42,115 nt of DNA from assembly GCF_021209385.1 (NCBI RefSeq), contig NZ_JAJOIL010000017.1, forward strand, positions 1-42,115. The letters are read 5' to 3'. The position numbers were made by a program, and so were the translations under genes. Positions 1,804 through 32,774 of the stretch are shown here, piece after piece. The stretch is from Seleniivibrio sp. GTDB taxonomy: Bacteria > Chrysiogenota > Deferribacteres > Deferribacterales > Geovibrionaceae. Below the pieces are notes generated by a model that saw nothing but the letters and a program-made list of their open reading frames with translations, did not search any database and was not told where the DNA came from. Numbering within the stretch: position 1 is the stretch's first letter; every line of letters begins with the position of its first letter.

Positions 1804-4800
1804 ATGTCCCAGAACAAAGAGTTCGTCCACCTGCACCTGCACACCCAGTATTCACTGCTGGACGGTGCCATAATCGTGGGCGACCTTATGAAGAAGATAA
1901 AAACCAACGGAACAACCCCCATCGTCGGCATATCCGACCACGGAACCATGCACGGCATAGTGGATTTCTATAAACAGGCGCTTGCCAACGACATAAAACC
2001 CATTCTCGGCTGCGAAGTGTACGTTGCGCCGGACAGCCGCAGAAATACGTCATACGAAAAAGGGCAGGACAGGAACTATCACCTTGTTCTGCAGGCAAAG
2101 AATAACAAAGGACTTTCAAACCTGCAAAAGCTGGTGTCCCTTGCACAATTTGAGGGCTTCCACTATAAACCGCGTATAGATAAAGAGATACTTGCACAAT
2201 ATTCCGAAGGTCTGATCGGTCTTTCCGCATGTCTGGCGGGTGAGATACCCAGAAAGCTGATGCGCGACAGATATGATGAGGCGCTTGCCGCCGCAATGGA
2301 ATATAGAGATATCCTCGGTAAAGACGATTTCTTCCTTGAGATTCAGGAGAACGGCATAGAGGAACAGATGATGGTGAACCGTCAGATAATAAAGATGTCG
2401 CAGGAAACGGGCATCCCGCTGGTGGCTACGAACGACTGCCACTATCTGAACAAGGGCGACCACCTTAGCCATCAGGTTCTCATATGCATACAGACCCAGT
2501 CCACAGTAAACAGCCCCAACAGGTTCGAGATACACTCGGATCAGCTCTGGGTGAAAAGCCCCGAAGAGATGTGGGCGGCGTTCGGAGAAGTGCCTTCCGC
2601 ACTGACAAACACCATGGCGATTGCGGAAAGATGCAACACGTCTATAGAGTTCGGACACCTGCACCTTCCGGAATATGAAGTCCCCGAAGGTTTCAACACA
2701 ATCGCGGACTATCTGACACACCTTGCACGCAACGGGCTTGTGAAGAAACTGGCAAAAATTCCGGCAGAAAAGCATGAAATATATCATCAGAGGCTCAAAG
2801 AAGAGCTCGACGTTATCATAGGAAAACATTTCGACGGCTATTTCCTCATCGTATGGGACTTCATCAACCATTCGCGCACCATAGGCGTTCCGGTGGGACC
2901 CGGCAGGGGTTCCGGTGCCGGTTCTCTGGTGGCATACAGCATAGGTATCACGGATATTGACCCGATACGTTTTAATCTGCTTTTCGAGCGATTTCTGAAC
3001 CCTGAAAGAGAATCCATGCCCGACTTCGATATAGATTTCTGCGTAAGAGGGCGTGAAGAGGTGATAAAGTACGTCCGCCAGAAATATGGCGACGACAGAG
3101 TTTCGCAGATCATCACATTCGGTAAGCTGATGGGCAGAAGCACAATTCGCGACGTAGGGCGTGTGCTTGAGGTGCCGCTGAAAGACGTGGATAAGCTGGC
3201 GAAGGCGCTGCCTTCCGACCCGGGTATGACGCTCCGCAAGGCTCTGGAGAAAGACCCTTCCCTGAACGACAACTTTAAAGAGGTTGAACAGGGTGAGGAT
3301 ATCCTCACCCACGCCGTAAAGCTTGAAGGACTTGTGCGAAACACGGGTATGCACGCGGCTGGCGTTGTCATTTCCGACAAACCCCTGAACGAATACGTTC
3401 CGCTTTGCAGAGGTCAGAACGAAGAGGTTATCACTCAGTTTGAAAAGGACACGCTGGAAGCTGTCGGACTTGTTAAGTTCGACTTTCTCGGTCTGAACAA
3501 CCTCACAATCATAGATGAGGCGCTGAAGCGCATCAAAGAGAACCGGGGAGAGGATCTGGACATATCCAGAATCCCTCTGGACGATAAAAAGGTATATGAC
3601 CTTCTCTGCCGCGGCGACACAACTGGGGTTTTCCAGTTGGAAAGCTCCGGTATGAAAAACCTTCTGAAAAAGCTGAAACCGGAAGAGTTTGAGGACATCA
3701 TAGCCCTTGTTGCTCTGTACCGTCCCGGTCCCATGGAATCGGGCATGCTTGATTCTTTCGTAAAACGTAAATGGGGCGAAGAGGAGATCGACTATATTTT
3801 CCCTGAGCTTACGGAGATATTGAAAGAGACCCGCGGGGTGGTTATTTATCAGGAACAGGTTATGCAGATCGCCCAGATAGTTGCCGGTTATTCGCTCGGT
3901 TCGGCGGATAACCTGCGGCGCGCCATGGGTAAGAAGAAAGCCTATGAGATGGAAAAACAGAAAGAGTTTTTCCTCCATGGCGACGGAAAGACCATCCCAG
4001 GTGCGAAAAAGATGGGCTTCGATATGGTCATGGCGGAAGACCTGTTCGACAAACTGGCAAAATTCGCCGGATACGGTTTCAACAAGTCTCACTCAGCAGC
4101 ATACGCACTTATTTCCTACCAGACCGCTTACCTGAAAGCAAATTACCCTGTGGAATACATGGCGGCTATCCTGTCATGCGAAATAGATAAAGGCGAAAAG
4201 ATCGTGACCTTTACGGAAGAATGTAAAAGTATGGGCATAGAGGTGCATCCGCCGGATATCAACAAATCCGGAGCGTCGTTTGTTATAGATGGGAACACCA
4301 TCCGTTTCGGACTGGGAGCTATTAAAAACGTGGGAATGAACGCCATCGAAGCGGCGCTGAAAGTGCGGGAAGAGGGCGGAGAGTTCAAAAATATATACGA
4401 GTACTGCTCGCGTGTAGACCTGCGTCTGAGCAATAAAAAAGTGCTGGAATCACTGGTAAAGGCGGGTGCGTTCGACAGTACGGGCAAGAACCGCAGGCAG
4501 AATCTTCAGGTGCTTGAAAAAGCTCTGGAAGAAGGACAGCGTAAGCAGAAGATGGAACAGCAGGGCATCATCTCTCTGGAATCTTTTCTTGAAGACGAAA
4601 CGGAGAACGGCGGCGATAATGATTTCTTCCCCGACGTAACAGAGATGCCGGAGAACGAGCTTCTCAAGATGGAGAAGGAGGTACTGGATTTCTATATCTC
4701 AAACCACCCGCTTGCCGTTTATCACAATATTCTGAAGACCTTCACAGTGCCTATGGCGGAACTGAAAACTCCCGAAGCTTCGGGGCAGTATGTGATTGGC

Positions 4801-5343
4801 GGGCTTGTGAAAGCGATAAAGAACATTTTTACGAAAAAAGGCGACAAGATGGCTTTCGTGACCCTTGAGGACATGGACGGCGAACTTGACGTGGTTGTGT
4901 TCCCGCGGGTTTATGAGGAGACAGTGCGTCACCTTGTGGCAGATAAGATAGTTGTTGTCGCGGGCAGTGTAAACCATAAGGACGAGGAGACCACCATACT
5001 TGCCGATGCGATAATGGACGTGCCGGAAGCTGTGGAAAAACTCACCGAGCGGGTCACCATAAAACTCACCAGCCTCGGAATGACGACAGAGATAATCAGT
5101 AAGCTGAAAACCATTGTGAAACTTCATAAGGGCGATGTTCCAATAACGTTTTATCTGGAGCGTCCGAAGACCTTCGGAGTTTTTATAAACGCCGGAGAGG
5201 ATTTTTATATCAAGCCTGACTTTGATTTCTATAAAGAGATAGATGACCTCATCGGCAAAGGCAGATATGAGATAAAATCCAAGGCATACGAACATAAAGA
5301 GCAGAAAACCAGCTTTTACAGAAAGCGCACGGGAGATTCATGA
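1804..5343 (+). CDS. dnaE: DNA polymerase III alpha subunit
   Basis: Replicative polymerase catalytic subunit, 1179 aa, the normal length for DnaE1. The N-terminal PHP domain starts 'FVHLHLHTQYSLLDGA' (about residues 7-22). The palm carries 'GPGRGSGAGSLVAY' and the catalytic 'PDFDIDF' with D407 and D409; the third acidic residue is D560 in 'KFDFLGL'. 'LYRPGPMESGM' and 'AGYGFNKSHSAAYA' match the fingers region. A C-terminal OB fold is seen near residues 995-1070 ('GDKMAFVTLEDMDGELDVVVF'). The start has an AGAGG site. The stop overlaps the thiD start by four bases (ATGA), so the two are probably translationally coupled. Confidence 0.97.
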   Translation: MSQNKEFVHLHLHTQYSLLDGAIIVGDLMKKIKTNGTTPIVGISDHGTMHGIVDFYKQALANDIKPILGCEVYVAPDSRRNTSYEKGQDRNYHLVLQAKNNKGLSNLQKLVSLAQFEGFHYKPRIDKEILAQYSEGLIGLSACLAGEIPRKLMRDRYDEALAAAMEYRDILGKDDFFLEIQENGIEEQMMVNRQIIKMSQETGIPLVATNDCHYLNKGDHLSHQVLICIQTQSTVNSPNRFEIHSDQLWVKSPEEMWAAFGEVPSALTNTMAIAERCNTSIEFGHLHLPEYEVPEGFNTIADYLTHLARNGLVKKLAKIPAEKHEIYHQRLKEELDVIIGKHFDGYFLIVWDFINHSRTIGVPVGPGRGSGAGSLVAYSIGITDIDPIRFNLLFERFLNPERESMPDFDIDFCVRGREEVIKYVRQKYGDDRVSQIITFGKLMGRSTIRDVGRVLEVPLKDVDKLAKALPSDPGMTLRKALEKDPSLNDNFKEVEQGEDILTHAVKLEGLVRNTGMHAAGVVISDKPLNEYVPLCRGQNEEVITQFEKDTLEAVGLVKFDFLGLNNLTIIDEALKRIKENRGEDLDISRIPLDDKKVYDLLCRGDTTGVFQLESSGMKNLLKKLKPEEFEDIIALVALYRPGPMESGMLDSFVKRKWGEEEIDYIFPELTEILKETRGVVIYQEQVMQIAQIVAGYSLGSADNLRRAMGKKKAYEMEKQKEFFLHGDGKTIPGAKKMGFDMVMAEDLFDKLAKFAGYGFNKSHSAAYALISYQTAYLKANYPVEYMAAILSCEIDKGEKIVTFTEECKSMGIEVHPPDINKSGASFVIDGNTIRFGLGAIKNVGMNAIEAALKVREEGGEFKNIYEYCSRVDLRLSNKKVLESLVKAGAFDSTGKNRRQNLQVLEKALEEGQRKQKMEQQGIISLESFLEDETENGGDNDFFPDVTEMPENELLKMEKEVLDFYISNHPLAVYHNILKTFTVPMAELKTPEASGQYVIGGLVKAIKNIFTKKGDKMAFVTLEDMDGELDVVVFPRVYEETVRHLVADKIVVVAGSVNHKDEETTILADAIMDVPEAVEKLTERVTIKLTSLGMTTEIISKLKTIVKLHKGDVPITFYLERPKTFGVFINAGEDFYIKPDFDFYKEIDDLIGKGRYEIKSKAYEHKEQKTSFYRKRTGDS

Positions 5344-12790: not shown

Positions 12791-12802
12791 TCTTTAACTC
12801 TA

Positions 12803-13837
12803 TCAGATGAAAATAACGGATTTTTCAGCTTTTTCAGACGCTGTTCCCACGACGGCTGCATTGGCGTAGCCTTCGTCTTTCAGTGCGGATACCATCTTTT
12901 CCGCGTCATTTTCTGAAACGCCTATCAAAAGCCCGCCGGAAGTCTGCGGGTCAAAGAACAGCATGTGTGAATTGTCTGGCGAGGTGGTGAATCCGCAGAC
13001 GTCTTTCACAAACTCCATGGTTCCGTATGCGCCCGCAGGAATGATGAACTGCGAGGCGTATTCCCTTGAACCATCCTGATATGTGAAACATTTGCTGTCG
13101 AATGTGACTGTCTTACCGGAGCCGTTTGCCATCTCGTGTCCGTGTCCTGCCATTCCGAATCCCGTGACATCAGTACATGCGGAAACATTGAATCTGCGCA
13201 ACAGCTTTGAAGCGTTGCCATTTGAAAGGAGCATCGTATCTGTGACGGACTTGATATGTTCCTCAGTTGCCATACCTGCTTTCAGGGCGGTCGTGACAAG
13301 ACCTATACCCAGCTTTTTGGTATAGATGAGAACGTCACCTGTTCTCAGCCCGTGGTTCTTATAGAATCGCTTGTCTTCTATCACTCCGGTGACGGAGAAA
13401 CCCAGCTTTATTTCGTTGTCAGCGATAGTGTGACCGCCGCATAGTGCCGCGCCTGCTTTAGCACATTCATCCGCCGCGCCCTGCATCATCGCCTGTATGA
13501 TTGTTTTGTCCATGGAACAGTTAAGCATGAAAACACTGAGAGCCGTGACAGGACGTCCGCCCATGGCGTATACGTCGCTGATTGAATTGTTTGCCGAAAT
13601 CCGCCCGAAAAGGTATGGATCGTCCACAACGGGCGTAATGAAATCAACGGTCTGCACCAGATATGTACCGTTTCCGAGGTCGAACACAGCAGCATCGTCG
13701 CCCGTTTCAAACCCAACAATGAGGTTATCTGGGCGGTACAGTTTCAATCCTGAAAGTACTTCCGCCAGGTCGCCCGGACCCGTCTTGGCGGCTCAGCCGG
13801 CCGCTTTAGCGTATTCAGTCAGACGTTTTACGTCCAT
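12803..13837 (-). CDS. selD: Selenophosphate synthase, itself a selenoprotein (Sec15)
   Basis: Makes selenophosphate from selenide and ATP, the selenium donor for Sec-tRNA and selenouridine. Reading from the ATG at 13837, which has a strong GGAGG site 7 nt upstream, gives 344 aa with one in-frame UGA at codon 15: 'YAKAAGUAAKTGPGDL'. It aligns with the catalytic Cys17 region of E. coli SelD ('GAGCGCK'), so the UGA is read as selenocysteine. The ATP-binding 'TGDDAAV', 'CGGHTI' and 'CTDVTGFGMAGHG' motifs follow. A standard gene caller would start at a TTG at 13747 and lose the catalytic residue. A terminator of the upstream aminotransferase lies just before it, so either read-through or a short promoter drives it. 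Confidence 0.93.
13762..13795 (-). promoter_or_regulatory. UGA selenocysteine codon with SECIS-like hairpin
   Basis: The in-frame TGA is at 13795-13793. Directly after it CCGCCA (13791-13786) pairs with TGGCGG (13767-13762), and GGTC (13780-13777) pairs with GACC (13771-13768). A 5-nt bulge lies on the 5' side and the loop is CGGGC. The loop begins 17 nt after the UGA and has G in its second position, matching the usual geometry of bacterial SECIS elements recognised by SelB. Confidence 0.75.
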
Positions 13838-13853
13838 CTTGTCCTCCGATAAA

Positions 13854-13893
13854 CAAAAAAAGGCACGCAAAACGATGACCGTTAGCGTGCCTT
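13854..13893 (-). terminator. Intrinsic terminator after aminotransferase gene
   Basis: On the minus strand AAAGGCACGC pairs with GCGTGCCTTT around a 15-nt loop and runs into seven Ts. It lies between the aminotransferase stop and the selD start. Confidence 0.8.
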
Positions 13894-13912
13894 TAACATC
13901 GTCAGTTAAAGA

Positions 13913-30198: not shown

Positions 30199-31327
30199 AT
30201 TGTATTATGATTTTCTGATATTCCTTTAACGCCGCGGTCTCTGTTTCTGTCAGCAGCCGCAGCGCTTCGTTAAAATCACCAGCGGACACGGTGAAAACGC
30301 CGTGTCCGTATACTGTTACACTATCACTTTTTTTCATAGCTGGCGGCAGGGTGTTCACCATTGCTCTGGGACCGTTCCCCACCTCTCCGGAAACTATCGG
30401 CACTTTTCCTATGTATCTTTCCTTTGTACAGGCATAGTGACATTTGCCTCTGTTTTCGCATTTTTCCGCGCACATCATTGACATTATGACGGCAAAGCGC
30501 GGATGTGCATGGAGAATGACCTTCTTGTCAGTGGTTTCGTAAATCCTTCTGTGGGATGCCAATTCACTGGATGCGGTCAATCCTGTGCATGTGGATTCGT
30601 CCAGAGGACAGATATCGGTTTCATTTTCAAGCTCGTCCAGACTGCTTCCTGTCCTGCTTATGTATATGTTCTTGCCCTCAAAGACAGAAATGTTGCCGAA
30701 AAATGAATCAACAAGTCCCAAATAGACTGTTGTTCTGCCCGCTTGTGCCATAGCTGATAATATGGATTGTTCCGATTGAAAGATATCTTTATCAAGAGAC
30801 GGCGTATCGTTTACGGCGAATCTCTTTATGTAGCTGTTCAGAAGTTCGAGCGTCAGTTCTTTGTCGTAGGGCTTTCCGAGTAGTGCCGCTTCCCCTGCGT
30901 CTGCAAAAAATTTCACGAACCCGCTGAATATGACAGAGCTGGCAAATATAAATGCCTGTTCTGCGCCGAACGGGGCGGCTGTTGCTATTCCCTGTCCGCG
31001 GACGAAGACTGCCTTGCGGCGTTTGAGCGCGTCAGGCACTTCCGAAAAGCTGTCTGCAACAGGAACCGTGTGCAGAAAAGTTCTTGTTTCGGAATCGTTG
31101 GGTGCGAACTCGCCGCCTTTTGCCGCTGCTTCCAATGCTGACATGAACGGTTCTGCCGGGCGGACAAAAAGAAGTGAATAGGTCTTGATATGTGAGGCTA
31201 TTTCCGAAAGCTCTTTATCAGCGGTGTCGCCATATATAGTTACAGTGTCTTCGGTTACGATATAGATCGCTTTGTCTGCTAGCTTACTTAGTTTGAGTTT
31301 ATTCAGGTATTTATCGAAAAGGCTCAT
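30197..31327 (-). CDS. Two-domain class II aldolase/adducin-family protein with Cys cluster
   Basis: 376 aa, about 150 longer than the fuculose-phosphate aldolase family norm. The C-terminal half carries the whole active site: 'FFGNISV' (N212), the catalytic acid E255 in 'ASSELASH', zinc ligands H273 and H275 in 'ILHAHP', and H342 in 'VYGHG'. The N-terminal half ('RRKAVFVRGQGIATAAPFGAEQAF', about 103-126) looks like a worn copy of the same fold without these residues. An insert holds C286, C290, C296 and C300, plus C240 and C247, a pattern suggesting a bound metal or cluster. It is the last gene of the operon and overlaps the AFOR stop by four bases. Likely reaction: retro-aldol cleavage of 5-deoxyribulose-1-phosphate or methylthioribulose-1-phosphate to dihydroxyacetone phosphate plus an aldehyde; inferred from mtnA. 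Confidence 0.75.
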   Translation of the reverse strand: MSLFDKYLNKLKLSKLADKAIYIVTEDTVTIYGDTADKELSEIASHIKTYSLLFVRPAEPFMSALEAAAKGGEFAPNDSETRTFLHTVPVADSFSEVPDALKRRKAVFVRGQGIATAAPFGAEQAFIFASSVIFSGFVKFFADAGEAALLGKPYDKELTLELLNSYIKRFAVNDTPSLDKDIFQSEQSILSAMAQAGRTTVYLGLVDSFFGNISVFEGKNIYISRTGSSLDELENETDICPLDESTCTGLTASSELASHRRIYETTDKKVILHAHPRFAVIMSMMCAEKCENRGKCHYACTKERYIGKVPIVSGEVGNGPRAMVNTLPPAMKKSDSVTVYGHGVFTVSAGDFNEALRLLTETETAALKEYQKIIIQ

Positions 31328-32774
31328 ACAAGCCCCCGTATGCGGTGGTATTTTTTCAGTTCGGCATCAAACTCTTTCTGCTGCTGTGCCGACAGGACAC
31401 CTTCCGGCAGTCTGTCCGTTTCTATGCCGAAACCCAGTCTGCGAATTATTCCTATCTCGTTCATGAATATGTTGTTTCCGCATTCGGCAAGTTGTGCCGC
31501 AGTTGTTCCGAGCGCCTTGGAATATTCCTCCAGTGATGCAGAAAAGAGGACGTACCGGCAGACAGGCAGCGAATCAGCCGCCGCCTTTGCGTTTTCATAG
31601 GCTATGTTTATGACGGCTTTGCCCTCGGCAGAGTGTCTGTCAGTGGGGACGGGTTTTCTTAGTATCTCGTGGGTGACTGCCATTGCGGTTGTCCAGTCCG
31701 CGCCGTTTGTGGAGGTTGCATAACCCAGCGCCACGCCCATTGCGCCATCGGGTGCGAAGGCAGGCAGTTCAATGCCTTTAACGGTGAGACTATCCGAGCC
31801 TTTGTAATATTCTTTTGGAATATTATAGAGAAATTTTTCAGCATCCATGCCCGACTGCACTATGCAGTGGCAGGCGGTTGTTATGTCTATGCCCTGTTTC
31901 AGGCAGTAGTTATATGTTTCGAGGATTCTGTCAAACGGGATTCCCACGCTTAAGAGCATGGCAAATTCATCATATTCCGGTACCCGTAGTCCGTTCTTTT
32001 TTTTTGCGGCAGGCTATGACGCATGAACCGCATGAGACGCTTTCCGTTTTACCGAAGGCATTTGCGTTATCGTGTGCATGGGGTTTCGACATGTTGAAAA
32101 AGACGTTGGGGAGAATGTTGCGTGCATGGGAAAGGTCATAGAGTGCGGCTGTGCCGAATCTGCCGATGCCCAGTCTTCCGGTGAGCGACGGCGCGGCGTT
32201 TATCAGCCTTTCTATGTCTTCATATGCCTGTGTCGACGGAATTTCCGGTTCGTTTGCAGGCATAATGCCCACTGACAAAAGATTCATGTCGTGCATCAGA
32301 GTTCCTGTGCCGCCTCTGTGTGTTGTAAAAAATCCGTCGGAGAGGATACCGCAGTATCTTATGTTTTTGTCAGCGCCCGCTTCGATCTTCGCATAGCCCG
32401 CGGGTATGCTTCCGAACCGTATGTTTTTGTCTATGATCAGGCTTACGGGTTTGTCCGCCCGTCCTGTAATGATAAGCCCGTCGTATCCCGCTCTTTTCAG
32501 TGCCGTTGCGAATCCGCCGCCGAAATTCGAGCGGAACAACCCCCCCCGTTCGCGGGTCTATGTGCATGACAGCGCATCTGGCTGTGGTCTGATAACCTGT
32601 ACCCGTGAGCGGTCCTGTGCAAAATATAAGAGGATTTTCGCTGAGATGTTTGCCAAGAAGATATCCGCACAGTCCCCGACCGCCGATATATCTGTCATAG
32701 ATGCCTTTTTCAGGTGTTACAATGCTGTGGGAAAGGTCTGTCAGCGAGACTGAGAGTATCTTTCCGGTATACAT
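31324..32774 (-). pseudogene. Aldehyde:ferredoxin oxidoreductase homologue, broken by two homopolymer indels
   Basis: Three frames in series read as one 482-aa AFOR-family (tungsten-pterin) enzyme once one base is removed from a G8 tract (forward C8 at 32540-32547) and one from an A9 tract (forward T9 at 31997-32005). Part 1: 'YIGGRGLCGYLLGKHL' and 'FCTGPLTGTGYQTTARCAV'. Part 2 joins as 'RTGGLFRSNFGGGFATALKRAG'. Part 3 joins as 'KNGLRVPEYDEFAMLLSVGI'. The [4Fe-4S] cysteines are present: 'CGSCVIAC' and the late 'VCRYVLF'. It is about 120 residues shorter than typical AFOR. Both errors are +1 and both in homopolymers, so sequencing error, slippage-rescued expression or true decay are all possible. 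It shares one base with the mtnA stop (TGATG). Confidence 0.8.

Follow-up and report, generated by a model that had tools for sequence, protein, structure and literature searches.

How is the selD gene of this Seleniivibrio read, when its frame is interrupted by a TGA at codon 15? We addressed this question in the window, the whole 42,115-nucleotide stretch of DNA analyzed here, and in the genome from which it comes. By direct reading, selD lies on the minus strand, with its ATG at 13837-13835 and a single internal TGA in an otherwise open frame; a frame check of the plus strand of 12803-13837 found many stops. The features that bear on the question are the following.

12803..13837, minus strand: selD, encoding selenide, water dikinase, 344 amino acids plus stop, with the presumed selenocysteine (Sec, UGA) at codon 15; from profile match and structure alignment
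13793..13795, minus strand: in-frame TGA, the presumed Sec codon, at the catalytic Cys position; same codon in 21 orthologous loci
13762..13791, minus strand: bacterial SECIS-like hairpin, with a conserved core stem at about 13766-13782 and the apical loop CGGGC at 13772-13776; from conservation, covariation and model fit
13843..13847, minus strand: Shine-Dalgarno sequence GGAGG, 5 nt before the ATG; direct reading
12803..12805, minus strand: true stop TGA, then an in-frame TAG (12800-12802); direct reading
13854..13894, minus strand: terminator-like hairpin with a T run, separating selD from the aminotransferase gene upstream; similar in congeners

The identity of the product as SelD was established by the NCBIfam profile selD (TIGR00476), which scored 335.8 bits (cut-off 125) over residues 5-311, a match that spans the TGA. 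The protein is 88-90% identical to records of 'Seleniivibrio woodruffii' and 'Deferribacteraceae' MAGs, the match from which the genus was assigned. In the closest solved structures, A. aeolicus SelD (2yye) and E. coli SelD (3u0o), a Cys aligns with the TGA, and the N-terminal segment around this position reads KAAG-U-AAK, with the G-C/U-xxK motif present. The claim of the preliminary description that a TGA occupies the catalytic Cys position of SelD, in frame with a GGAGG-led start, was thus borne out by reading and alignment.

We conclude that selD almost certainly encodes a Sec-containing selenophosphate synthetase, in which UGA 15 is read as Sec by way of SelB, Sec-tRNA(Sec) and a SECIS hairpin. 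SelB carrying Sec-tRNA(Sec) would decode the codon, directed by the hairpin immediately 3' of it, and the Sec, sitting where other SelD enzymes have an essential Cys, would take part in the conversion of selenide and ATP to selenophosphate. This compound would then serve SelA in the synthesis of Sec-tRNA, including that for SelD's own Sec, as well as the tRNA 2-selenouridine synthase of the same genome. We infer the insertion of Sec, its catalytic role and a tRNA-Sec gene within an unsequenced gap.

A profile search of the genome recovered selB (C31:62530-64359, 306.8 bits, cut-off 242.25) and, adjoining it, selA (C31:64383-65687, 510.5 bits, above cut-off). The gene for tRNA 2-selenouridine synthase (mnmH/ybbB) was found on contig C25, and selenophosphate therefore has two uses. 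The UGA of selD, the hairpin with its compensatory changes, selA and selB together support the earlier proposal that this organism decodes UGA as Sec. Its corollary, that other genes may be mis-annotated in the same way, is reasonable, but no second selenoprotein emerged in the window or among the formate dehydrogenase-like genes: no other TGA-extended gene was recognizable within the window, and the genome held no match to Sec formate dehydrogenase with an internal TGA. Among Sec-decoding bacteria, those that lack FdhA invariably possess Sec-SelD, and most of them also show the selenouridine trait (PMC1794560). The lack of a TGA-containing formate dehydrogenase in this genome, in which selenoprotein families were surveyed in part, would fit that pattern.

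Orthologs were sought in 31 genomes of the order: 30 relatives plus the one that contains the window. SelD and tRNA-Sec were both present in 21 and both missing from eight; the two discordant genomes were the window's own, with its gap, and one that is 64% complete. This co-occurrence gave a Fisher p of ~1e-5, a value that ignores shared ancestry. SelB scored above the cut-off in 20 genomes, every one of which has SelD. SelD, tRNA-Sec and a SelB at cut-off level were all absent from G006, G008 and G010 (one genus), G014, G021, G028, G023 and G029, and the Sec trait was apparently lost several times within this one order.

The preliminary description had proposed a check for selA, selB and selC, which succeeded for the first two genes and failed for the third: tRNA-Sec was not found in the 42-contig draft genome. 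An Rfam scan of the window and the selAB contig region detected none, and those Rfam tRNA-Sec matches in the genome that we examined proved to be other tRNAs, e.g., Ser, Leu and Tyr. BLAST searches with two sibling tRNA-Sec regions likewise returned no tRNA from this genome, yielding, apart from a 32-bp match on C22 that we rejected as chance-like, only an end fragment of 18 nt on C5. All four congeners, by comparison, carry the gene (ARAGORN SeC (tca), 73-75 bits). Its surroundings in the congener G003 map to our contig C25, which stops within a rhodanese-like gene, ~1-2 kb short of the expected HIT gene and tRNA-Sec. Our genome also lacks the HIT-family gene, a neighbor of tRNA-Sec in G003 that G002 has as well. 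The end of C25 is the 3' end of a transposase (NRRLHSALGYKRP...) and that of C5 the 5' end of a transposase (MKKSRFTETQIISILKE...); we take both to be IS3-like, and they are oriented so that one element could bridge them. Since all congeners have tRNA-Sec, its expected place is a contig gap at an IS element, and the HIT gene is gone as well, the tRNA-Sec of this genome very probably fell into the assembly gap.

At 8.6 kb from its end, C5 also matches the 3' end of the G003 tRNA-Sec exactly over 18 nt, with the remainder of the gene missing; a phage-type integrase gene (tyrosine integrase, PF00589) lies 5 kb beyond this copy. The tRNA-Sec end, the integrase and the IS3-like end all fall within L084 10494-19061 (G000:C5:125494-134061). 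In other bacteria, selC is known as a hotspot for islands. The 18-nt copy resembles the distal attachment site of an island that inserted at the tRNA-Sec gene; the intact version of that gene would be expected beyond the C5 end.

These contig ends also admit a different account, in which tRNA-Sec was truly deleted by an IS event, the UGA has come to act as a stop, and selA, selB and selD have only recently become relics. The absence of the gene from the assembly would agree with it, as would the two transposase ends that a single element could bridge. However, contig breaks usually stem from multi-copy IS elements, the concomitant absence of the HIT-family gene is expected for a dropped small contig, and selA, selB and selD are intact, with no signs of decay. 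We therefore regard a true deletion as unlikely, and it is just as doubtful that IS-mediated loss of tRNA-Sec beside a selC island left Sec-SelD intact but unreadable. If true, such a loss would capture the selenocysteine trait at the very first stage of its disappearance.

The favored reading, in which UGA 15 is decoded as Sec, draws on the comparison of selD itself among relatives. The SECIS-like hairpin of the window is cgggucCGGGCgaccug, with its loop 16 nt past the UGA and an MFE of -14.6 kcal/mol over 48 nt; the type uagguccGGAggaccug occurs in many selD orthologs. The bacterial SECIS model describes a loop of 3-9 nt with a G in the first two positions, an upper stem of 4-16 bp, a spacing of 16-37 nt and an MFE at or below -7.5 (PMC13188914). 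The window's hairpin fits this model in spacing, loop, stem and MFE. When the stem is required to be contiguous, the fit is poor for one ortholog (L067). Taken alone, the window's hairpin is no more stable than shuffled sequences (z -0.44), and an equally good hairpin under the same rules occurs at 66 of the 1570 TGA triplets of the window (~4%). Because this single-sequence signal is weak, the SECIS claim rests on conservation. Across 21 distinct sequences, pairing was standard in 96% of the pair cells and three of the six pairs showed changes on both sides. The covariation score, 0.340, was higher than in any of 500 shuffles (mean 0.234) or any slid control (<=0.148), and RNAalifold, unprompted, recovered the same stem. 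Where AGGUCC/GGACCU is replaced by AAGCCC/GGGCUU, the encoded amino acids differ on both sides of the stem, and the compensatory changes are therefore not accounted for by codon constraint alone. The SECIS search suggested earlier thus led to a conserved hairpin just 3' of the UGA, with compensatory changes and a fit to the published model.

Could SelD instead be a shorter protein, translated from the downstream TTG (13747), with the upstream TGA a true stop? The mechanical table-11 ORF does begin there (12803..13747, TTG start, 314 aa), and it lacks the active site, in agreement with the earlier statement that default prediction cuts the gene at a TTG. Such a protein would lose the G-U/C-xxK active-site segment that is conserved in the SelD family, and the conservation of the SECIS-like hairpin also counts against it. 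Moreover, codons 1-14 show the substitution pattern of a coding sequence in this frame: synonymous/nonsynonymous differences from four congeners were 6/0, 3/1, 3/0 and 4/2, and this mostly synonymous divergence indicates that translation in the selD frame already covers the part ahead of the UGA. We consider a TTG start very improbable.

An even smaller probability attaches to a sequencing error or a pseudogene in which a Cys codon (TGC/TGT) mutated to a stop, a suspicion that might arise in a draft genome with frameshifts in other genes. The SelD orthologs in the 31 genomes have one internal TGA each, and one of them has a TAA in addition. After strand-correct re-reading, the TGA stood at the same selD codon, followed by AAK, in 22 of 22 loci (21 relatives and the window). 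An identical TGA in all 21 orthologous loci of other genomes rules out a sequencing error as well as a broken gene, and the remainder of the selD frame is intact and under purifying selection. Genome-wide reassignment of UGA (e.g., to Trp), as opposed to recoding at selD codon 15, has nothing in its favor beyond the in-frame TGA and merits next to no credence: selD and a DNA polymerase III alpha-like gene (1804..5343) both end at TGA, reading TGA as sense lengthens no other recognized gene meaningfully, and the selD UGA aligns with Cys, not Trp.

Two broken molybdo/tungsto-enzyme genes were observed in the assembly. An aldehyde:ferredoxin oxidoreductase gene at 31324-32774 of the window (minus strand) appears as three overlapping or adjacent ORFs (AFOR_N, AFOR_N, AFOR_C); as a TGA case it was rejected, being frameshifted or error-laden. 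A large molybdopterin oxidoreductase gene on C7 (L115 / G000:C7:28339-30737, minus strand) is broken by a frameshift with its Cys kept, and was likewise dismissed as a TGA candidate.

The borders of selD have features of their own. The gene ends in a tandem TGA TAG in frame (12800-12805, minus strand), a possible guard against read-through of a UGA stop in a Sec-decoding cell. Upstream, the terminator-like hairpin at 13854-13894 ends ~7 nt before the Shine-Dalgarno sequence, and the aminotransferase gene of congeners has a similar hairpin at its 3' side. Transcription of selD must either pass through this hairpin or start from a promoter overlapping it.

The literature agrees with the earlier assertion that Sec-containing SelD is known in bacteria (PMC1794560, PMC4561486). 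It is among the most widespread bacterial selenoproteins (PMC1794560), and Sec is encoded by 19% of the SelD genes in a prokaryote reference set, at an invariant position (PMC4561486). Our gene shares with the Sec-SelD / SPS2 type (TIGR00476) the same full-length homology, the replacement of the catalytic Cys by Sec and a SECIS inside the coding sequence, and nothing of substance differs here. The SelD enzymes of A. aeolicus and E. coli are homologous, but have Cys where the window has its Sec codon; the second residue after this position is Ala in our gene and in A. aeolicus SelD, whereas E. coli SelD has GCGCK. The literature searched held no paper on selenocysteine in the genus Seleniivibrio. 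Sec-SelD is a standard, well-described selenoprotein, and the Seleniivibrio gene is one more ordinary example of it. In this genome, selD comes out truncated when read plainly with table 11. The finding assigns the genus Seleniivibrio, together with most relatives studied, to the Sec-decoding bacteria and confirms a known pattern.
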